Origin: a bacterium
GTDB taxonomy: Bacteria > Patescibacteriota > JABMPQ01 > JAUVWW01
Direction of reading: 5' to 3'
Length of the DNA: 61,826 nt
Assembly: GCA_030603885.1 (NCBI GenBank)
Contig: JAUVWW010000006.1
Span: 1-61,826 of the forward strand
Shown here: in pieces, positions 9,393 to 35,121 of the stretch
Layout: each line of letters begins with the position of its first letter
How positions within the stretch are numbered: position 1 is the stretch's first letter
Made by a program: the position numbers and the translations under genes
The notes under the pieces: generated by a model
Seen by the model: the letters and a program-made list of their open reading frames with translations, nothing else
The model's database searches: none
What the model was told of the DNA's origin: nothing

Positions 9393-10889
9393 TTAATCAA
9401 TTCCTACCACGGAACATCCTCCTTCAAAATTAGGAGCATAAGCCATAAAATTGGCTAGGATAGTTCTTTGCCTATTATATCGATATACTTTTACCCAGGT
9501 CTGGCCAGAAGATGCCTGAGACATGATTATTTCATCAATGCCATCGTGATCAAAGTCATTTGATGCTACATCTATTCCACCATTAAAGTTTTTGCCAAAG
9601 GGCCAGAAATCTAGCTTGGATTTTCCATTGAATTCAAAGACTCTCCCGTGTGGTCCACCACCATATCCCGCTCCGGTAATTATTTCTGCCTGTCCATCTT
9701 TGTCTACATCTCCAGTGGCCACCCTTGCTCCTCCTTCAAAGTTTGGGTGATAGGCCAGAAAGTTGGCTAAGATAGTTCTTGCTTTATTTACTTTATATAC
9801 TTTTATCCAAGCTTGTCCATTTGAAAATTGACTTGTAATTATCTCGTCTTTTCCATTTCTGTCTACATCTCCGGCTGTTACATCTACCCCACCTCTAAAG
9901 TCAGTTCCAAAGGGAAAGACATCCCAACCTAGATACCTTCCTTTATATGAGAAGGCACGAACATGAGCTCCCTCACCTGGTCCTGCGCCAACAATAATTT
10001 CATCTTTTCCGTCTCCATTTATATCTCCAGTGGTAACCCTCACTCCACCTCTAAAATTTTCATTAAAGGCAAAAAAGGAAGAGATTAGCTTTTTAGTAAT
10101 TTTGGAATAGACTTGGACATGCGGTCCTCCTCCCGCCCCAGCTCCCACCACAACTTCTTCCACCCCATCTCCATCAACATCTCCAGCTGTCACATCGGCT
10201 CCTCCGCGAAAGCCATTATTAAAAGCAAAGTTATCTAATCCAGCTGATTTGCCATTACCATAAAATACTTTAATATGGGCTGATCCTCCGAAACCGGCCC
10301 CAGTCAGAATCTGAGAAGGAGGAGCTTGGGGATTGTTCATGCCCAAAATAAATTTTGTGGGATTGTGCCAAGTTTTTAGCTCTTGGCTATCTCCGTATCC
10401 CCAGTAGACCCAGTCATTATTAACATCTACATAGGCTCCTTTTTTAATTCCAAGATGCAAATGAGGAATCCAGCCACCATTTTCATTCCTATCAGCCAGA
10501 TAGCCAACAACTTGTCCTTTTTTAACAAAACTATTTTCCTTGACTGGAGCATTTGATTTTAAATGACCATAAACAGAGCAAATTCTTTTTCCAGAAAGCA
10601 AAAAATGTTCCACAATGGCTACATAACCATACCTAGTATGTAGGCCAAAGTGTCTAAGATATCCTCGAGCGGCAGCTACCACTTTTGTTGCCACGGGCTT
10701 TACCACATCGTCTCCTAGATGATATCTATTTTCTGAAGCTTTAGCTCCAAAAAGATAAGTTATATTGCCCAGCCAATTGGTCAAAGGAAAGATAAAACTT
10801 GAAGCTTCATCATAAGCTAAGGCTTGGCTTGAGAAGCAAAGGGCAAAAATAGTGATTAAAAATGAGATAACAAGGGCTCTTTTAAACAT
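9393..10889 (-). CDS. secreted M23 (LytM-type) peptidase-like domain fused to FG-GAP/VCBS repeats
   Basis: Signal peptide; RYHLGDDVV...GYVAIVEH...VYGHL...GQVVGYL...HLHLGI; then GDVDGDGVEEVVVGAGAGGGPHVQV repeats. Confidence 0.85.
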   Translation of the reverse strand: MFKRALVISFLITIFALCFSSQALAYDEASSFIFPLTNWLGNITYLFGAKASENRYHLGDDVVKPVATKVVAAARGYLRHFGLHTRYGYVAIVEHFLLSGKRICSVYGHLKSNAPVKENSFVKKGQVVGYLADRNENGGWIPHLHLGIKKGAYVDVNNDWVYWGYGDSQELKTWHNPTKFILGMNNPQAPPSQILTGAGFGGSAHIKVFYGNGKSAGLDNFAFNNGFRGGADVTAGDVDGDGVEEVVVGAGAGGGPHVQVYSKITKKLISSFFAFNENFRGGVRVTTGDINGDGKDEIIVGAGPGEGAHVRAFSYKGRYLGWDVFPFGTDFRGGVDVTAGDVDRNGKDEIITSQFSNGQAWIKVYKVNKARTILANFLAYHPNFEGGARVATGDVDKDGQAEIITGAGYGGGPHGRVFEFNGKSKLDFWPFGKNFNGGIDVASNDFDHDGIDEIIMSQASSGQTWVKVYRYNRQRTILANFMAYAPNFEGGCSVVGID

Positions 10890-10984
10890 AATTGAAGATT
10901 AGTTCTATTTTGTTATATTATAGCACATTATTTGATTTTTGGGCTAGATTTTGCTAGATTTTTAATATAACTAACTCTTTTAGA

Positions 10985-12607
10985 ATGAAGACAAAAATCC
11001 TAATAGTAACAATTATTTTAGTAGGTTGTTTTTTTGTTTGGAATAAAACCCAAGCTTCTAATCTAGATAGTCTTCCTCCAGAAGTTCGCATTTTCAATTC
11101 TCAAAATTTTTTAAAGATTGATTCTTTTTTGGCTTTCTCAAGAGATTTTAAAGGAGGAGTTAATCTTGCCGTAGGCGATGTAAATGGCGATGGTAAAAAT
11201 GAGATTGTCACAGGAGCTGGCCCAGGTGGCAGTTCACATATTAGAGTTTTTAAATCAAATGGAAGATATACTGGTTGGAATGTCTTTGCTTTTGGTCTTG
11301 ATTTTAAAGGAGGGGTAACTGTGGCTTGTGGTGATGTTGATGGTGATGGCATTGACGAGATCATTGCTGGTCAGGAAAGCCTGGGCGAGGCTTGGGTTAA
11401 GGTTTATAAAGTTAATCGTAGCAAAACTATTGTGGCTAACTTTAGAGCTTATGAAGAGAAAATGGAATGCGGCGTAAGTGTAGCCGCCGGTGACATTGAT
11501 GGTGATGGCAAGGACGAGATTATCACCGGGGCAGGCAGAAGTGGTACTCCCGAAGTTCGGGTCTTCAAAGATGGCAAAAAAATCTGGGATGTCTGGCCCT
11601 TTCATCCGACTTTTTCTGGAGGACTTGACGTGGCCTCAGGCGATGTAGATGGAAATGGCATTGACGAAATTATTGTTAGTCAAAAAAGAGATGGCGAGGC
11701 TTGGCTGAAGGTTTATAAAGCTAATGCCAAAAAAACAATCCTAGCTTATCAGAGAGTCTTTCCTCAGGGATGGGAAGTGGGAGCCAGGGTAGCAGCTGGT
11801 GATATCAACAAAGATGGCAAGGATGAAGTTATTATTGGAGCTGGCAAATATGGCCCTCATGTCAGAATTTTTGGATTTAAAAATAGAGAGTTTCGACTAC
11901 TTAAAACTGGATTTTTTGCCTATGACAGGAATTATAAAAATGGGGTTAATGTGGCAGCAGGTGATATTAATAATGATGGAAGAAGTGAGATTATCACTGG
12001 AGTTGGAACTCCAAAGGTGATTAAAGATCACGATGTCTATTTAGCTGTACCCTATTTTAGGCAAGAGCATAGACTTTCTTGTGAGGCAGCAGCTTTGCGT
12101 ATGGGTTTGGCTTACAAAGGAAAAAATGTTTCTGAGACTGAGATAATGAAATATGTTGGCTTTGATCCTACACCACACACAGACAATATTTGGGGAAATC
12201 CTCATCAAGCCTACGTAGGAAATATTGATGGTAGGCAGCTAATCTCTGGCTATGGGGTTTATTGGAAGCCCATTGCTAAAGCAGCCAGGCACTTTAGGCC
12301 AGCTATCTATTTTGCTGGCCAAAGTCTAGGAAACATTCTACAAGAAGTGGCTGATGGGAATCCAGTTATTTTTTGGGGATCTATTTTAGATTACCTATCT
12401 CCACTTTGGTGGCAAACTCCAGATGGCCAGACTATTTATGCCATTCGAGGTGAGCACACCTATGTAGTCAAAGGATTTGTTGGTTCAATATATAATCCTA
12501 GTCAGATTATTCTCAACGACTCTCTTTCTGGCGAGAAGCGAGTGTCAACTTCCTGGTTTTTGAAAAATTGGGGATTTTTAGGGAATAGTGGAGTGGTGGT
12601 AAGGTAA
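10985..12607 (+). CDS. secreted FG-GAP/VCBS-repeat protein with C-terminal C39-like cysteine peptidase domain
   Basis: Signal peptide, five or more GDVNGDGKNEIVTGAGPGG-type repeats, then VPYFRQEHRLSCEAAALRMGL...GEHTYVVKGF...NDSLSGE. Confidence 0.85.
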   Translation: MKTKILIVTIILVGCFFVWNKTQASNLDSLPPEVRIFNSQNFLKIDSFLAFSRDFKGGVNLAVGDVNGDGKNEIVTGAGPGGSSHIRVFKSNGRYTGWNVFAFGLDFKGGVTVACGDVDGDGIDEIIAGQESLGEAWVKVYKVNRSKTIVANFRAYEEKMECGVSVAAGDIDGDGKDEIITGAGRSGTPEVRVFKDGKKIWDVWPFHPTFSGGLDVASGDVDGNGIDEIIVSQKRDGEAWLKVYKANAKKTILAYQRVFPQGWEVGARVAAGDINKDGKDEVIIGAGKYGPHVRIFGFKNREFRLLKTGFFAYDRNYKNGVNVAAGDINNDGRSEIITGVGTPKVIKDHDVYLAVPYFRQEHRLSCEAAALRMGLAYKGKNVSETEIMKYVGFDPTPHTDNIWGNPHQAYVGNIDGRQLISGYGVYWKPIAKAARHFRPAIYFAGQSLGNILQEVADGNPVIFWGSILDYLSPLWWQTPDGQTIYAIRGEHTYVVKGFVGSIYNPSQIILNDSLSGEKRVSTSWFLKNWGFLGNSGVVVR

Positions 12608-12689
12608 AGGAATTGACAAGGAGAAATTTGTATACTAAGTTTAGATATTCTGTAAATAGCTTTAAAAACTTAATAGGAAGGAGGTATAA

Positions 12690-14129
12690 ATGCCTAAGAA
12701 GAAAGGGTTAACTTATAAGGATGCCGGAGTTGATATTGATGCAGCAGAGGAGGCTTTAAAGAGAAGCAAAGTTGCTATTGAATCCACCTATCAACCCCAT
12801 GTTTTGAAAGGTGTTGGTCTTTTTGGGGGTATGGTAGATTTTAGAATGGCTACCCGGAATATTAAAGATCTTGCTTTGTTTCATACCATGCAAGGTGAAA
12901 GCTTTGAAGCTGGAGAGAAAGACACCCATCTGTCTGTAACTAAAAACGTAATTCACCAATGTCTGAATCATATGTTTTTTCCAATAATGGACGTTGATAG
13001 CCATGGAATAAGTTTCTTAGACTATATAGCAAGCAGCAAACTCAAGCCTCTTACTGTTTCAGAAACAATAGCAGAAATGGCTAAGATATGTTCTACTAAG
13101 GAAATTCCTATTATTGGGGGAGAGACTGCTGAAATGCCTGGTATTTATCGGGAAGGTGGCATGGAGATAATTGGGGCTACGACAGCTATTGCTCCTTATC
13201 ACCATGAAGTAGGATTTGACGAAGACAAAAGAGCATCTATTATTACTTACTACCTCCGTGATATATTCGAGTCCTATCAGAATCCTGTTTTGGTTCAATC
13301 CATTGACGGAGTAGGAACAAAGACTATGCTGGCTGTGCATTATGGCACCAATGTGGAAGATCTGGTTAGCCATTGTGTTAATGATATTGCAGTCCAGGGA
13401 GCTAAACCTCTATTTATGATGATCTATGCTGATACTGATGTTTGGAGAAAAGATGTAAAAAAGCAACTTCAGGAAGGCACAGAGAAAGCCGAGGCTCAAG
13501 CAGAGCTAAAAATTGTCTTCTCTAAACCCAATCCAGATGTTTATCAACCTAATCAGATTGATTTGGTTGGCTGTATCACTGGAGTAGTAGAAAGAGAAAA
13601 GATAATCGATGGCTCAAGGATTGAACCGGGTGATAGGCTGATAGGTCTGGCATCAAGCGGTCCACACACCAACGGCTACAGTCTTATCCGGAAGATTATC
13701 AAACTTAAAAAGCTAAGATTAGATCGGCATTTTGATGAGCTGGGCTGTACCTTGGGTGAGGCTGTAAGGGAACCGCATCGTTCCTATCTGAAACAAATCC
13801 AGGAATTGATAAAAGGATGTGATGTTAAGGGGTTTGCTCACATTACGGGTGGTGGGCTGGTCGATAATGTTCCCAGGATTATTCCAGACGGTTATACAAC
13901 TCTAATTGATCGTTCCACTTGGCAAGTACCCAAGTTGTTCCAGCTTCTTCAGGAATGGGGCAATGTTCATGACATGTGGCGGACATTCAACATGGGAATC
14001 GGCTTGGTGGCAGTTGTTCCAGAGAAAGAACAGAAAAAGGCTCTAAATCTATTGGAGTGTATGGACCAAACCGCTTACATCATTGGGACAGTACAAGAAA
14101 GAGAAAAGAAAATAGTCTTCACAGATTAG
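12690..14129 (+). CDS. purM: phosphoribosylformylglycinamidine cyclo-ligase, unusual 479-aa form
   Basis: SD aggaaggaggt; TYKDAGVDIDA, GGETAEMPGIY, DGVGTK, VNDIAVQGAKPLF, GVVEREKIIDGS, GLASSGPHTNGYSLIRKI, HITGGGLVDNVPR, FNMGIGL; motif order is non-canonical. Confidence 0.9.
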   Translation: MPKKKGLTYKDAGVDIDAAEEALKRSKVAIESTYQPHVLKGVGLFGGMVDFRMATRNIKDLALFHTMQGESFEAGEKDTHLSVTKNVIHQCLNHMFFPIMDVDSHGISFLDYIASSKLKPLTVSETIAEMAKICSTKEIPIIGGETAEMPGIYREGGMEIIGATTAIAPYHHEVGFDEDKRASIITYYLRDIFESYQNPVLVQSIDGVGTKTMLAVHYGTNVEDLVSHCVNDIAVQGAKPLFMMIYADTDVWRKDVKKQLQEGTEKAEAQAELKIVFSKPNPDVYQPNQIDLVGCITGVVEREKIIDGSRIEPGDRLIGLASSGPHTNGYSLIRKIIKLKKLRLDRHFDELGCTLGEAVREPHRSYLKQIQELIKGCDVKGFAHITGGGLVDNVPRIIPDGYTTLIDRSTWQVPKLFQLLQEWGNVHDMWRTFNMGIGLVAVVPEKEQKKALNLLECMDQTAYIIGTVQEREKKIVFTD

Positions 14130-14218: not shown

Positions 14219-14273
14219 ATACCAACTTGTATTAGAGATAAGTTTTTAAAACTGAATAATGAAAGGAGGAAGC

Positions 14274-14996
14274 ATGGGAAAGATAAAGATTGCTGTTGGA
14301 GCTGATGGTTCTGGTAGTACTTTGCAGGCCATTATTGATGCTTGTAAGCTTGGCAGGCTATTGCATAAGAAAGCCGAGGTAGTCCTGGTTTTCTCTAACA
14401 ACAAGGATGCCTTTGCTTTAAAGAGAGCAGAGAAAAGAAAAATACTGACTGTAGTGAGACAAAGAGAGAAAGGCGAGAAGATATCTGCCTTCTTTGAAAG
14501 AGTCGATGAATGGGGTGTATATATGGAAGTCGATCTTTATTGTTTAGCAGGGATGATGGTAAAAGTACCTGAGGGGTTTGTGAAAAAGCACTATGGCCAT
14601 ATTATAAATTCCCATCCCGCTCCTTTATATGAGTTTGGAGGTAAATGGATGTATGGTATTATTCCCCATGCTGTTCGGCTGGGATTTGTTCGGAGAGCTG
14701 GCAAGGCTTTGACTACCTGTGCTACTATTCACATAGTTAATGAAGAATACGACAAAGGGCCTGTTATAGGAGAGCTGTGGATTGGAATCAAAGAAGATGA
14801 TACTCCGGAGTCACTTCAGAAAAGATTACTTCCTTATGAACATGCACTCTATGTAAGAACAATCAATGCTTGGATTGATAATGAAGGTCAGTTGCCACCA
14901 GTGACCAGAGATCACCCTTTGGTTCTACCAGGACAAATGGAAATACTGGAGAAGATTAAACAAGAAGTTTGGGATAAATATCTTAAAAAACATTGA
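14274..14996 (+). CDS. purN: phosphoribosylglycinamide formyltransferase-like
   Basis: DGSGSTLQAIIDACK, VFSNNKDAFALKRA, IINSHPAPL, TTCATIHIVNEEYDKGPVIGE; SD aaaggagga before ATG 14274. Confidence 0.85.
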   Translation: MGKIKIAVGADGSGSTLQAIIDACKLGRLLHKKAEVVLVFSNNKDAFALKRAEKRKILTVVRQREKGEKISAFFERVDEWGVYMEVDLYCLAGMMVKVPEGFVKKHYGHIINSHPAPLYEFGGKWMYGIIPHAVRLGFVRRAGKALTTCATIHIVNEEYDKGPVIGELWIGIKEDDTPESLQKRLLPYEHALYVRTINAWIDNEGQLPPVTRDHPLVLPGQMEILEKIKQEVWDKYLKKH

Positions 14997-15009: not shown

Positions 15010-16305
15010 ATGAAAGTGTTAGTGATTGGCGGAGGAGGCAGAGAACATGCTCTGGTTTGGAAGATTAAACAGAGTTCTATGGTTAATGAAATCTTCTGTG
15101 CTCCTGGAAATGCTGGTATTGCTGAAATAGCCCAGTGCTTTCCAGTTAAGGCTGAAGATATTCCAGGCCAGGTTGAATTAGCCAAAAGAGTAGGCGCTAA
15201 CTTGGTGGTGGTTGGTCCAGAGGTACCTTTAGCAGAAGGGATTGTTGATATATGTCAGGCTGAAGGTATCAAAGCTTTTGGTCCTACCAAGAAAGCAGCT
15301 CTTATCGAGTCTGATAAAGCCTTTGCTAAAGGATTAATGGATAAGGCAAGAATTCCTACTGCTAAGTTTAGTACATTTGAAAATCCGGATAAGGCTAAAA
15401 TTGTTTTAAAATGTTTAGAGAAAGAAGATTTTCCCCGAGTGATTAAAGCTTCTGGCTTATGTGCGGGAAAAGGTTCGATCATGGTCAAAGACAAAGAAGA
15501 AGCATTAGCTACTGTAGATAAGATAATGAGAGACCGGATCTTTGGAGAGGCAGGAGATACTATTGTCCTTGAGGAATACCTTGAAGGAGATGAAGTCTCA
15601 CTTCTTGTTTTTACAGATGGAAAAGACTTTGTTTTCCTTCTTCCCTCTCAGGATCACAAGCCAGTCTTTAATGACGATGAAGGTCCAAACACCGGTGGAA
15701 TGGGTGCCTATGCTCCGGTTCCCTTTCTTTCTGATAAGGACATTGGAAAGATAATTGACAAAGTCCATGCACCTGCTATCCACTATTTACGAAAGATGGG
15801 CATTGAATACAAGGGTGTTTTGTATGCTGGCCTGATTATTACAGAGAAGGATCCCAAGGTTTTGGAATTCAACTGCAGGTTTGGTGATCCAGAAACACAA
15901 CCGATCTTTATGTTGCTCGAGACTGATTTGATGGAGCCTTTGCTTGCCTCTATCGAAGGAAACCTGAAAAATATCTCTTTGAAATGGAAGCCAGGCTACG
16001 CCACTTGTGTTATCCTTGCTTCTGGAGGATATCCAGGCAAGTATGAAAAAGGAAAAGAGATCACGGGTCTTGATAAAGTAACTGATGCTGTTGTCTTTCA
16101 TGCTGGTATTAGGAAGGAAGGTGATAAGTGGCTGACCAATGGGGGTCGAGTACTGGGAGTAACAGGGGTAGGTAAAGATCTTGAAACCTCAGTAGACTCG
16201 ACCTATCGAGAAGTGGACAAAATAAAGTTCGAAGGTGTACATAATAGACTCGATATCGGTGTTCATGGGCTTACTTATCTGATGTTCCATCAAAGCCTCA
16301 TTTAA
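15010..16305 (+). CDS. purD: phosphoribosylamine-glycine ligase
   Basis: MKVLVIGGGGREHALVWKI, VVGPEVPLAEGIVD, ATP-grasp GPNTGGMGAYAPVPF, EFNCRFGDPETQPI. Confidence 0.97.
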   Translation: MKVLVIGGGGREHALVWKIKQSSMVNEIFCAPGNAGIAEIAQCFPVKAEDIPGQVELAKRVGANLVVVGPEVPLAEGIVDICQAEGIKAFGPTKKAALIESDKAFAKGLMDKARIPTAKFSTFENPDKAKIVLKCLEKEDFPRVIKASGLCAGKGSIMVKDKEEALATVDKIMRDRIFGEAGDTIVLEEYLEGDEVSLLVFTDGKDFVFLLPSQDHKPVFNDDEGPNTGGMGAYAPVPFLSDKDIGKIIDKVHAPAIHYLRKMGIEYKGVLYAGLIITEKDPKVLEFNCRFGDPETQPIFMLLETDLMEPLLASIEGNLKNISLKWKPGYATCVILASGGYPGKYEKGKEITGLDKVTDAVVFHAGIRKEGDKWLTNGGRVLGVTGVGKDLETSVDSTYREVDKIKFEGVHNRLDIGVHGLTYLMFHQSLI

Positions 16306-16355: not shown

Positions 16356-16363
16356 TTTGCCAT

Positions 16364-16391
16364 TTGACAAAGAAATAAACCATGATAATAT
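16364..16391 (+). promoter_or_regulatory. promoter upstream of purL
   Basis: TTGACA (16364-16369), 16-nt spacer, TAATAT. Confidence 0.5.
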
Positions 16392-16443
16392 AAACCAATT
16401 ATGGTTTGTAAAAGTTGATAATCTAAAGAAAAAAGGAGGAATC

Positions 16444-19400
16444 ATGATAACATCGTTTTTCCGTATGTCGGCTTTCTCTGAAATGAAAGAGAGTTTATTG
16501 CTTAGGCAACTGCAGAAAAAAGTGTCTTATGATATTGAGTCAGTTAAGATCGAGTGGAAGTTTTATGTAGAATCTAAGAAGCCTCTTACGAAAGATGAAC
16601 TAAAGAAGTTGGAATGGTTACTTTCAGAAACTTTTGAGCCTGAGAAATTCGGACCTGATTTAAATCCACCACAGAATGTTAAGATTTTTGAAGTTGGTCC
16701 ACGAAAAGTTATTGTCTCGCCTTGGTCTACTAAGATGGTCTCCATCTGTCATTCCTGTGGCCTGGACTCAATCACAAGAGTTGAGAGGACAAGACGTTAT
16801 TGTTTAGAGTTCCGACCTGGTATGAAGCTTTCTGATCAAGTACGACAAAGGATCTTTGATGAACTCCACGATCGGATGACTGAAGAGCCATATCTTGAGC
16901 CGCTTACTACATTTGATTTAGGGATCAGCGCTCCGCCAGCTAAGATTATTCTCTTGCTTGAAGAAGGAGAAACTGCCTTTGACCAATTCTGCGTCAAGTG
17001 GAATCTCTCATTTACCAAGACCCAGACCGATTACATTATCAACCACTATGTCAACGTGCTCCGACGTAACCCAACTGATGTTGAAATCTTCACTTTTGCT
17101 CAGCTCAACTCAGAACATTGCCGACACGGCAAATTCAATGGCCGATGGATAATTGATGGTCAGCCTGGTCAATTTTCGCTCATGGAGATGATCAGGCAGA
17201 CTGCGGTAACTAATCCTGAAGGCGTTATTGTAGCCTTTAAAGATAATGCTGCAATAATCCAAGGCGGAGAAATTCCAGTGTTTGCACCAGAAGACCCAAC
17301 TCTTCCCAGTCCTTATAGCTATTCTTCACGGCGCTATCATTATGTATTCAAAGTTGAAACTCATAACCATCCTTGTGCTATTGCAGCCGGACCAGGTTCT
17401 GATACTGGTATTGGTGGTGTGGTGCGTGACATCTTGGGTGTAGGTAGAGGAGGACAGCCAACTTTTAGTTTTGCTGGCTACTTTGTCTCTCACCTTTTAA
17501 TTTCAAACTATCCTCTACCCTGGGAAGAAAGATTAGTGCCTGTTCCTGAAAACTTCCAGCATCCAGTTAATATTCTAATTGGTGCCTCAAATGGAGCAAG
17601 TAATTATTCTAATCAGCTGGGCATCCCAGTGATTTTGGGAACCACTACTTCTTGTGAGCTTAAGGTTGATAAACGCTTCTTTGGCTATCACAAGCCAATT
17701 GTGGTGGTTGGCACTGGTGGTCTAATTGATGATCCCCATGCCCAGAAGCTAGAGCCGGTTTGTGATTTAGTTCTTTTCCGGCTTGGTGGAGATGCCTATG
17801 CTATTGGTCTTGGTGGTGGAAGTGGTTCAAGTCAAGATGGTGGTGAGTCGCAGAAGGATAAAGAAAGGAAAAAAGCTGAGCTAGACTTTAATTCAGTTCA
17901 GCGAGGCAATGCCATTATGGAAAAGGTAGGGATTAACGTGATTAAGAGGTGTAGTCTTCTTGGTCCAGATAATCCCATCTGGACTGTCACAGATTCAGGT
18001 GCTGGTGGTGCTTGTGTGGCTACTCCAGAAATCGTTTTCCCAAAAGGAGCTGATGTTTATTTACGCAAGATTCCTTGTGGAGACAAAACCATGGCTCCTC
18101 TTGTCTACTTTTGTAATGAATCGCAAGAGATTATGTTTGTTCTGGTGTCTGGTGAAAAACTTCCTGTGATTGAGAAAATCTGTCAGCGAGAGAAATGTCC
18201 TTATGCAGTGGTTGGTAAGGTACGGGATGATGGCAGATTTATTCTCTTTGATGAGGAGAAAAACGAGCAGCTTATTGACCTGACCATGGACTTTTTGCTG
18301 GCCGATTTGCCCCAAGAGGAGATTGTTGCAGAACATGTTCCCTTGGAGCTTACTCCTCTCAAACTACCTACAGGGCTCACTATTGAGCAAGCACTCAAGC
18401 GAACCTCACGACTTCCAAAGGTCTGCTCAAAAGAGTTTTTAACTCGTAAAGCAGATCGTTCGGTTTCTGGCCGAGTCGCCCAACAGCAATGTGTTGGTCC
18501 ACTTCAGTTACCTTTAGCAGACTGTGCTGTTTTTGCAGCCAGTTTTAAAGAAAAAACAGGACTGGCAGCGGCTATTGGTGATCAGCCAATCAAAGGAATT
18601 GTCAATCGCCAAGCTTCAGTGAGAATGGCTGTTGGTGAGGCTCTTACCAATCTTATCTGGGCCTCTCTTGACAAGTATGAGCTGATAAATATCTCTGGAA
18701 ATTGGATGTGGCCCTGCAGGCAACCCGGGGAAGATGCTTTGCTCTATGATGCGGTGGAAGCAGTTACTCATCTGATCGAGAAAGAACTTGGTTTAAGAAT
18801 CTCAGTGGGCAAAGATAGTCTCTCTATGACTGCCAAGACTTTGGTTGAAAAAGCCCAAGAAATTGTGGAGATGACAATTTCTGCTCCTGGTACTTTAGTG
18901 GCTACTGCTTTTGCTCCTTGTGATGATATTACAAAAACCATTACCCCTGATCTTAAGAAACCAGGTGAGAGCAATTTGCTTTTCATTGATCTGGCTTGTG
19001 GCAAACAACGGCTGGGTGGATCTGCTCTGGCTCAAGTTTACAAACAGGCTGGAGATGAAGTGCCGGATGTTGAAGATGCAAAGCTTCTGGTCAATGCTTT
19101 CAAAGCAATCCAGAAGCTGATTGCCAAAGACCTGATTCTTTCTGGACACGATCGCTCAGAGGGCGGGCTCATCCAGACTCTGCTCGAGATGTCTTTTGCT
19201 GGCAATTGCGGCCTAGGCATTTCTACGCCTTCCGAAACTGATCCAATTACCTTCTTATTTAATGAAGAGTTAGGCCTGGTAATCGAGTATTTGCCCGAGC
19301 ACAAAGAAGAAATCTTTGAGACTTTAGCAGAATATGGTCTGGAGAATTCTTACTTCGTAATCGGCGCCCCTACTTTGGAAAAGCAAATTATCATCCGTGA

Positions 19401-20397
19401 TCACCAAGGCAAGATCATTCACGAAGATTCAATGCTTAATCTTCGTGATGCTTGGCGAGAGACCAGTTTTAAACTGGATGAACTCCAAGCTAATCCTGAA
19501 TCTAGCCGTGCGGAACGTAAAAATACCTTTGACCGAGAGGGACCTCGCAGTTATCTGCGCTTTATTCCAGTTTCAACGCCACAAAGCTGGTTTGGCATTC
19601 CTAATAAACCCAAGGTGGCCATTCTTCGTGAAGAAGGCACCAATGGAGAAGAGGAAATGGCAGCTTCATTTGAAGCAGCAGGCTTTGAAGCCAGGGGAGT
19701 GATCATGACCGATATTTTAGAAGGTCAGACCACACTTAGAGATTTCAGGGGTATTGCTTTTCCAGGTGGATTTAGTTTTGGTGATGTAGGTGATGCTGGC
19801 AAAGGCTGGGCCGGAGTAATTAAATTCAATGATCGGGCTCGAGAAGAAGTTGAGAAATTCTATGCCCGAGAGGATACTTTTTCACTTGGCGTTTGTAATG
19901 GCTGCCAAGTAATGGCTCTTCTTGGGATAGTGCCCTGGTCTGGGATTGGGACCGTCAAACAGCCACGCTTTATCCGAAATGAATCAGAGATCTTTGAATC
20001 CCGATTTGTTTCAGTGAAGATATTGCCCTCAAATTCAATCTTTCTTCAAGGCATGGAAGATTCCATCTTAGGTATTTGGGTAGCTCATGCTGAAGGTAAA
20101 CTCCACTGTCCGGACAAGAAAATCTTTGATCAGATCATCGAAGAGAATCTGGCTCCAATTCGATTTGTCAATGACAACAGTAGAATAACCACTGATTACC
20201 CTTTTAATCCCAATGGTTCTCCCGATGGCATTGCTGCTCTCGCATCACCAGATGGCAGACACCTGGCCATGATGCCTCATCCTGAACGTCTTTTTCGTGC
20301 CGGAAAAGCTCAATGGCCTTACTGGCCCCCAGAATGGTCAAAGCTTAAGGCTTCACCTTGGCTAAGATTATTCCAGAATGTCAGAAGATGGTGCTAA
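16444..20397 (+). CDS. purL: phosphoribosylformylglycinamidine synthase, single-chain (PurL-PurQ fused)
   Basis: Long PurL with C-terminal class I glutaminase (SLGVCNGCQVMALLG, MMPHPERLF); AN SEHCRH motif (LNSEHCRHGKFNG); SD aaaggaggaatc before ATG 16444. Confidence 0.96.
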   Translation: MITSFFRMSAFSEMKESLLLRQLQKKVSYDIESVKIEWKFYVESKKPLTKDELKKLEWLLSETFEPEKFGPDLNPPQNVKIFEVGPRKVIVSPWSTKMVSICHSCGLDSITRVERTRRYCLEFRPGMKLSDQVRQRIFDELHDRMTEEPYLEPLTTFDLGISAPPAKIILLLEEGETAFDQFCVKWNLSFTKTQTDYIINHYVNVLRRNPTDVEIFTFAQLNSEHCRHGKFNGRWIIDGQPGQFSLMEMIRQTAVTNPEGVIVAFKDNAAIIQGGEIPVFAPEDPTLPSPYSYSSRRYHYVFKVETHNHPCAIAAGPGSDTGIGGVVRDILGVGRGGQPTFSFAGYFVSHLLISNYPLPWEERLVPVPENFQHPVNILIGASNGASNYSNQLGIPVILGTTTSCELKVDKRFFGYHKPIVVVGTGGLIDDPHAQKLEPVCDLVLFRLGGDAYAIGLGGGSGSSQDGGESQKDKERKKAELDFNSVQRGNAIMEKVGINVIKRCSLLGPDNPIWTVTDSGAGGACVATPEIVFPKGADVYLRKIPCGDKTMAPLVYFCNESQEIMFVLVSGEKLPVIEKICQREKCPYAVVGKVRDDGRFILFDEEKNEQLIDLTMDFLLADLPQEEIVAEHVPLELTPLKLPTGLTIEQALKRTSRLPKVCSKEFLTRKADRSVSGRVAQQQCVGPLQLPLADCAVFAASFKEKTGLAAAIGDQPIKGIVNRQASVRMAVGEALTNLIWASLDKYELINISGNWMWPCRQPGEDALLYDAVEAVTHLIEKELGLRISVGKDSLSMTAKTLVEKAQEIVEMTISAPGTLVATAFAPCDDITKTITPDLKKPGESNLLFIDLACGKQRLGGSALAQVYKQAGDEVPDVEDAKLLVNAFKAIQKLIAKDLILSGHDRSEGGLIQTLLEMSFAGNCGLGISTPSETDPITFLFNEELGLVIEYLPEHKEEIFETLAEYGLENSYFVIGAPTLEKQIIIRDHQGKIIHEDSMLNLRDAWRETSFKLDELQANPESSRAERKNTFDREGPRSYLRFIPVSTPQSWFGIPNKPKVAILREEGTNGEEEMAASFEAAGFEARGVIMTDILEGQTTLRDFRGIAFPGGFSFGDVGDAGKGWAGVIKFNDRAREEVEKFYAREDTFSLGVCNGCQVMALLGIVPWSGIGTVKQPRFIRNESEIFESRFVSVKILPSNSIFLQGMEDSILGIWVAHAEGKLHCPDKKIFDQIIEENLAPIRFVNDNSRITTDYPFNPNGSPDGIAALASPDGRHLAMMPHPERLFRAGKAQWPYWPPEWSKLKASPWLRLFQNVRRWC

Positions 20398-33666: not shown

Positions 33667-33726
33667 AGTTTATAGTGGTGCTATGATTAAATATTCTTTT
33701 TATAAAATTTGAGAAAGGAGGTTCAA

Positions 33727-35121
33727 ATGAGTGGCATGTTTGGTGCTATTTGTAAAAGAGAATGCTCAGAGACTTTGTTTCTTGGAACAGATTATCATTC
33801 TCACTTAGCTACAGGGTTTGGAGGATTAGTAACTTGGAATAAGAGAGGAATGGCAAGAAAGATACATGAATTGGGTGGAACCCAGTTTAGGGCTAAGTTC
33901 TTCGAGGACTATAAGAAGATGAGAGGAAATCGAGGTATTGGTGTTATTAGCGGTGAAGAACAGCCTATCTTTCTTAATTCAAACCTTGGTCCTTTTAGTG
34001 TTTGTGTAAATGGTCGCATTTCAAACCACAAGACTCTGGTCAAAGAGCTTTATCTCGAGGGAGTTTCTTTTTCTGAAATGGGCAAGCATAAAGAATCAGT
34101 AAATAGTGCAGAGTTAATAGCCAGACTGATCACAAGAGGGAGCAATTTTGTAGATGGTATCGAGAAAATGTTCAATAAGATAGAAGGATCCTGTTCACTT
34201 TTGTTATTGTCCGATAAAGGTATTTATGCTGCTAGAGATAAGCTGGGCCATACTCCCTTAGTTATTGGTGAGAGAGATGGAGAATGGGCAGTGACTTCGG
34301 AGACATCTGCTTTTCCCAACTTAGGATTTAAGGTGCGCAAGTTCCTTGGGCCAGGCGAGATCGTTCTTATCGACGAGAAGGGAATGAAAGAAAAAAGTGA
34401 GGCTGGATCCGAACTACAAATTTGTGCTTTTCTTTGGATCTATACTGGTTTTCCTGCTTCGGATTATGAAGGGATAAATGTAGAGACAGTCAGAGAGAGA
34501 TGCGGACAGGCTTTAGCAAGAAAGGACAATGTAGAAATAGATCTAGTTGCTGGAGTACCTGATTCGGGTACTACCCATGCTATTGGATATGCCATGAAGT
34601 CGAGAATTTCTTTCCGGAGGCCTTTGGTAAAATATACTCCTAGTTATGGAAGAAGCTATACCCCGCCCTCTCAGAGAATCAGAGACCGAATTGCTCGGAT
34701 GAAACTGATTCCAATAGAAGAACTTACTCGGAATAAAAGAATACTTCTTTGTGAAGATTCCATTGTGCGTGGGACACAGCTAAAGAACTATACACTGGAG
34801 AAACTCTGGCGCAGCGGTGCAAAAGAAATTCATGTCAGGATAGCTTGTCCTCCTCTAATGTTTCCTTGTATATTCAATATTTCCACGAGGAGTATTAAGG
34901 AACTCGCTGCTCGTCGGGCCATAAAAGTGCTTGAGGGTAAGGCAATAGAGGATGTCAGCGACTATCTTGATCCGTTTACACGAAAGTATCAAAAGATGGT
35001 GGATCGGATTGCCAAGGAGATAAAGGTAACCTCTTTAAAGTACCAGACTCTAAATGATATGGTAGAGGCAATTGGATTACCAGAAAAGAAGCTTTGTCTT
35101 CATTGTTGGACGGGGAGTTGA
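33727..35121 (+). CDS. purF: amidophosphoribosyltransferase-like, altered glutaminase domain
   Basis: PRTase domain AGVPDSGTTHAIGYA, YTPPSQRIRD, ILLCEDSIVRGTQLKNYT, PPLMFPC; N-terminus MSGMFGAI; SD aaaggaggttc before ATG 33727. Confidence 0.88.
   Translation: MSGMFGAICKRECSETLFLGTDYHSHLATGFGGLVTWNKRGMARKIHELGGTQFRAKFFEDYKKMRGNRGIGVISGEEQPIFLNSNLGPFSVCVNGRISNHKTLVKELYLEGVSFSEMGKHKESVNSAELIARLITRGSNFVDGIEKMFNKIEGSCSLLLLSDKGIYAARDKLGHTPLVIGERDGEWAVTSETSAFPNLGFKVRKFLGPGEIVLIDEKGMKEKSEAGSELQICAFLWIYTGFPASDYEGINVETVRERCGQALARKDNVEIDLVAGVPDSGTTHAIGYAMKSRISFRRPLVKYTPSYGRSYTPPSQRIRDRIARMKLIPIEELTRNKRILLCEDSIVRGTQLKNYTLEKLWRSGAKEIHVRIACPPLMFPCIFNISTRSIKELAARRAIKVLEGKAIEDVSDYLDPFTRKYQKMVDRIAKEIKVTSLKYQTLNDMVEAIGLPEKKLCLHCWTGS

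Follow-up and report, generated by a model that had tools for sequence, protein, structure and literature searches.

A PurM-like protein with two N-terminal domains that retain complementary sets of conserved residues

Ordinary PurMs (TIGR00878) carry one AIRS (PF00586) and one AIRS_C (PF02769) domain, as in the proteins of E. coli (1cli), T. thermophilus (5avm) and N. gonorrhoeae (5vk4). PurM (AIR synthetase, EC 6.3.3.1) forms homodimers in which the N-domain sheets make up the interface, and Asp94, His247, Thr249 and Arg259 are listed as active-site residues of the E. coli enzyme (PMC5919458). ThiL and selenophosphate synthetase (SelD), which belong to the same superfamily as the protein described here, also have their active site at the dimer interface. 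In the ThiL dimer, the pocket for ATP lies where the two subunits meet, with the N-terminal helix as part of it; one molecule binds ATP and the other binds the substrate, in the pocket between its two domains (PMC6416309). Similarly, the ATP pocket of SelD lies between two chains (PMC7595633). PurL (FGAR amidotransferase, FGAM synthase), in its long form as well as in small PurL, consists of two fused, pseudo-symmetric halves resembling PurM; one of them contains the synthetase site, and an auxiliary ADP is bound in the other (PMC3815217). PurL is regarded as having arisen by duplication and fusion (PMC5919458). Both C-domains are kept in PurL (A1-B1-A2-B2), which has motifs of its own. Insect GART proteins hold a duplicated AIRS in one chain, as whole units inside GARS-AIRS-AIRS-GART, and no complementary N-domain loss is known in them; no paper on insect GART with a duplicated AIRS was found in the literature searched.

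Here, we analyzed a 61,826-nucleotide stretch of DNA (the window, to which all coordinates refer), a bacterial contig from an 825-kb, 99%-complete genome of a reduced lineage. It contains a purM-like gene whose product resembles ordinary PurM in having all the motifs once its copies are pooled, a normal C-domain, a purine gene context and a score over the family cut-off. Unlike ordinary PurM, it has two N-domains per chain (N1-N2-C) with complementary losses, a reversed motif order and a length of 479 residues. In contrast to PurL, the extra half comprises no more than an N-domain and is placed first, whereas ThiL, SelD and HypE differ in having one N-domain per chain and other substrates. With insect GART, the protein shares a duplication of AIRS in tandem within a single chain.

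Gene, family assignment and domain layout

The gene (12690 to 14129, plus strand) is a single uninterrupted frame. A Shine-Dalgarno-like AGGAGG (12679 to 12684, plus strand) stands 5 bases 5' of the ATG start codon, and the frame is preceded by aaggaggtataaATG. The preliminary description of this DNA had reported 479 residues against roughly 340 to 350 for typical PurM; the length of the product was confirmed, and ordinary PurMs have about 320 to 350. The protein scored 334.6 bits against TIGR00878, the PurM equivalog model, which has a curated cut-off of 236.35. Pfam placed AIRS at residues 200 to 300 and found one AIRS_C (PF02769, 108.8 bits). DGVGTK, VND, FLDY and GGETAEMPG are all present, but they are distributed over N1 and N2. 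Furthermore, the four listed E. coli active-site residues correspond to D232, H384, T386 and R396, all of them in N2 or the C-domain. The E. coli sequence used for this correspondence is consistent with the 1cli alignment and the published numbers. Instead of one N-domain and one C-domain with motifs in the canonical order, we found N1-N2-C and the reversed order. The family score, the catalytic residues and the motifs thus argue for a PurM ortholog of variant architecture, and no second PurM was found in the same genome.

Other members of the fold were considered as well. PurL was rejected since the protein has only one AIRS_C, no PurL model matched and a separate purL is present at 16357 to 20397. 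HypE was rejected on its score (22.2 bits against a cut-off of 251.6), and SelD and ThiL were rejected because neither family model matched.

When compared with the Thermus PurM (5avm) by phmmer, the protein aligned in four pieces: residues 8 to 49 with chain positions 2 to 43, 108 to 163 with 100 to 155, 194 to 243 with 49 to 101, and 291 to 457 with 151 to 318. The order along the protein is therefore arm, GGETAEMPG half, DGVGTK half and C-domain. A profile built from 112 ordinary PurMs matched the protein twice, and the two matches overlap in the profile: positions 5 to 166 aligned with residues 3 to 167 (101 bits) and positions 56 to 342 with residues 194 to 473 (309 bits). These alignments bear out the reversed motif order of the preliminary description; the canonical order, which it had named as the outcome that would contradict it, did not appear. 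Additionally, a DNA pattern for the reversed order matched once in the window and in none of 100 shuffles.

N1 is a complete PurM N-domain (residues 3 to 168; 12696 to 13193, plus strand, as are all features of the gene). It keeps the arm, FGG (starting at residue 45), FLDY (109 to 112; 13014 to 13025) and GGETAEMPG (143 to 151; 13116 to 13142) and is without DGVGTK and VND. The place where DGVGTK, GxD and VND would be expected is taken by a decayed first half (49 to 106; 12834 to 13007), so designated from the column counts given below and from its residual similarity to PurM. A linker of about 25 residues (169 to 193; 13194 to 13268), to which no profile matched, replaces the N-terminal arm that N2 would have had. 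N2, the second N-domain (residues ~194 to 311; 13269 to 13622), keeps DGVGTK (206 to 211; 13305 to 13322), GxD, VND (230 to 232; 13377 to 13385) and GA.P and is without FLDY and GGETAEMPG; D232, the aspartate of VND, corresponds to the active-site residue Asp94 of E. coli (PMC5919458). Its decayed second half (247 to 290; 13428 to 13559) occupies the expected place of GGETAEMPG. The single AIRS_C domain follows (312 to 476; 13623 to 14117), with HITGGG starting at residue 384 and DNVPR at 392 (13839 to 13877); H384, T386 and R396 are the counterparts of His247, Thr249 and Arg259 (PMC5919458). The starts given earlier for GGETAEMPG (13116) and DGVGTK (13305) were right, and the C-terminal half is normal, as had been claimed, with all the listed catalytic residues that fall in it.

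Complementary losses in two complete N-domains

We then compared both copies with the conserved columns of the 112 ordinary PurMs. Among the 28 N-domain columns conserved at 99% or more, 11 have the conserved residue in N1 only, 12 in N2 only, 4 in both copies and 1 in neither. The conserved residue is thus found in at least one copy in 27 of the 28 columns and in both copies in only 4. At a conservation of 90% or more (56 columns), the corresponding counts were 22, 18, 8 and 8. The residues kept in N1 only are those of Y..AGVDI, FGG, FLD and GGETAEM, and those kept in N2 only belong to D.VGTK, the GxD aspartate, the D of VND and GA.P. Over the columns alignable in both copies, retention in one was negatively associated with retention in the other (one-sided Fisher p = 0.02), a value that is only descriptive, since the columns of one motif do not vary independently. 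The blockwise pattern of retention is the stronger argument.

Scored alone with the HMM, the decayed halves were near the level of shuffled sequences, 5% and 1% of the shuffles scoring as high. Global alignment and comparison within the phylum are more sensitive for such segments. Indeed, the decayed second half of N2 aligned globally with the matching segment of ordinary PurM at a z of 4.5 (0 of 1000 shuffles as high). The decayed first half of N1 gave a z of 2.2 against ordinary PurMs (20 of 1000 shuffles), 5.0 against a particular PurM group from the same phylum (0 of 500 shuffles) and about 4 against two further groups of the phylum. The lengths of the segments also agree with the canonical spacing. 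Since the decayed half of each copy can still be aligned with PurM at significant scores, the protein has two complete N-domains and not a single reordered one, and a simple reordering or circular permutation was rejected because both halves retain their length and a residual similarity. The profile alignments and column counts support the earlier reading of an N-domain duplication with complementary loss. Its assignment of GGETAEMPG to the first copy and of DGVGTK and VND to the second held; the copies themselves are complete, decayed N-domains and not only half-domains.

At the DNA level, no meaningful match was found between the N1 and N2 copies. The duplication is therefore not recent, and it does not represent an assembly repeat.

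Purine genes and distribution of relatives

The gene heads a run of four genes in the same direction on the plus strand. It is followed by a purN-like formyltransferase gene (14259 to 14996; TIGR00639, 115.9 bits, below the cut-off of 150.1), purD (15010 to 16305; TIGR00877, 502 bits) and purL in its long single-chain form (16357 to 20397, start codon uncertain; TIGR01735, 1396 bits). A divergent purF lies further downstream on the same strand (33709 to 35121; TIGR01134, 204 bits, below the cut-off of 350). As purN and purF are both well under their NCBIfam cut-offs, purM is not the sole divergent enzyme of the pathway. Two divergently placed genes for FG-GAP repeat proteins were seen at 9393 to 12607, one with a Peptidase_M23 and the other with a Peptidase_C39-like domain.

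A second contig of the genome (L168) carries the cluster guaB-purA-purH-purB-guaA-purC. Its guaA (L168:9410-10348) encodes the synthetase half only (312 residues), without the glutaminase half. In all, purF, purN, purD, purL, purH, purB, purC, purA and guaB were found in the genome, and purE (TIGR01162) was not found anywhere in it. The AIR carboxylation step is thus missing or performed by something unrecognised, and the pathway may have a gap or take an unusual course. Most of it is present, with the N1-N2-C protein as its presumed sole AIR synthetase.

No N1-N2-C counterpart was found in about 1,400 other genomes of the phylum, nor in plasmids or phages, and 7 other genomes of the same order and class gave no PurM match. 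Overlapping samples drawn from the phylum and the class (384, 387, 393, 50 and 359 genomes) gave PurM-like matches in many genomes. Nearly all of these matches lay in frames of the usual length; each aligned with the N-domains one by one, and none spanned N1 and N2. Similarly, a single-protein scan of genome contigs found no relative, and the matches listed for plasmids and phages were of about 1 kb, the ordinary size of purM. The reversed-order DNA pattern matched at least 119 records of the whole collection; among the matches listed, all were canonical PurMs by motif order, as was the one match in viral contigs. In these cases, the MPG part was probably matched by the sequence around the start codon. 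Relatives may possibly exist beyond the genomes, plasmids and phages covered. No PurM of this architecture was found in the literature searched, which lay mostly outside subscription journals.

Two further observations were made during these searches. A 926-residue purD-purM-purN fusion (L179, G1328:C26), whose AIRS unit is ordinary, has a eukaryotic GART-like composition and comes from a bin with 10% contamination; it is probably a foreign contig. In addition, the PurMs L005, L008-L010, L012-L014 and L016 of the same phylum form one well-supported tree group in which GGET remains and DGVGTK is seemingly replaced (TEEPGSK in L005). This group seems to be a divergent AIR synthetase subfamily.

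A putative composite active site and its meaning

The N1-N2-C protein is probably a working AIR synthetase in which an extra N-domain has been fused before a normal subunit and the N-domain pair forms within one chain. We also lean towards regarding it as a naturally occurring PurM heterodimer that is covalently joined and has one composite active site only. On the ThiL template, each site would combine an ATP half from one subunit with a metal/substrate half, C-domain included, from the other. N2 and the only C-domain would provide the substrate and metal half of this site (D206, D224, D232, H384, T386 and R396). N1 would act as the partner that gives the ATP-side elements (the arm, FLDY and GGETAEMPG), as an ordinary subunit gives them to its neighbour. 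The mirror-image site would be unable to work because N1 is without a C-domain, and it would presumably have been the first to die. Residues serving only that site, namely DGVGTK and VND in N1 and FLDY and GGETAEMPG in N2, would then have been free to decay. The residues kept in N1 and in N2-C do look like an ATP half and a metal/substrate half, respectively, an assignment of the PurM motifs that follows ThiL and not PurM coordinates.

A structure prediction from the single sequence reached a pLDDT of 33. AlphaFold2 with an alignment of canonical PurMs split onto N1, N2 and C gave a pLDDT of 54, with a confident C-domain, an N1 with the helix and strand order expected for an AIRS N-domain and a poor N2 (pLDDT 21 to 36). 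All Foldseek matches of this model have the PurM fold. Since this outcome was imposed by the input alignment, we did not count the model and its matches as evidence of geometry.

The same enzyme could be built as a domain-swapped homodimer, with N1 and N2 pairing between two chains to give two composite sites. PurM and ThiL are homodimers, and the linker that would have to bridge N1 to N2 within one chain has only about 25 residues. We consider the swap unlikely, as nothing in the sequence favours it and the fused halves of PurL form their barrel in one chain (PMC3815217). A change of role is quite improbable, whether the protein left AIR synthesis for another substrate or N1 became a regulatory nucleotide site like that of the auxiliary ADP in PurL. 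Proteins of the PurM fold have often switched substrate (HypE, SelD and ThiL), and the ADP in the second half of PurL is of unknown function (PMC3815217), but the protein passes the PurM equivalog cut-off, keeps PurM-specific motifs across two copies and is encoded next to purN, purD and purL in a genome with no other PurM. It is highly improbable that purM is being lost after duplication and that its product no longer works. The small genome of a reduced lineage, the missing purE, the finding of this form in one genome only and the lack of a PurM match in the other genomes of the order would fit such a loss. Yet the frame is intact with a good ribosome-binding site, the C-domain is intact with all the listed catalytic residues and the adjoining purine genes are intact. 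Furthermore, almost all invariant residues survive, most of them in one copy and not in the other, and random decay would not produce such an outcome.

The lack of a second genome with the N1-N2-C form would also fit an assembly artefact or chimera, which is hardly credible. There is one open frame, the copies are without a meaningful DNA match, differ throughout and are complementary, whereas an artefact would duplicate intact motifs; the base composition of both parts also resembles that of the adjoining purine genes. An origin of N1 and N2 from two different, fused purM genes, instead of a tandem duplication, is compatible with a working single-chain enzyme and is a possible but doubtful one. 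The kept half of N1 is closest to PurMs of the same phylum (L002, 51%), that of N2 to those of Acidobacteriota and others (L095, 62%), and no DNA similarity is left between the copies. However, these rankings are weak because the pieces compared have only 46 to 55 residues and the N2-C tree does not resolve the branching around its base, and one and the same PurM group also gives good scores for both the arm and N2.

By the usual view, homodimers with shared active sites turn into asymmetric fused enzymes when duplication and fusion are accompanied by the loss of one site. PurL is a classic case of this route, and its starting steps are long gone. By analogy, the N1-N2-C protein may well parallel PurL in duplication, fusion and asymmetry on a small scale. 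It has the same fold, acts at a neighbouring step of the pathway if it is an AIR synthetase, and seemingly shows the result of the same process run independently and more economically: only an N-domain was added, and the motifs were sorted cleanly between the copies. For a specialist, it is a surprising variant of a known enzyme. If the composite-site reading is true, evolution would have separated, residue by residue, the PurM positions that act in cis with the C-domain from those that act in trans, and the sorting would predict which PurM motifs are given in trans.
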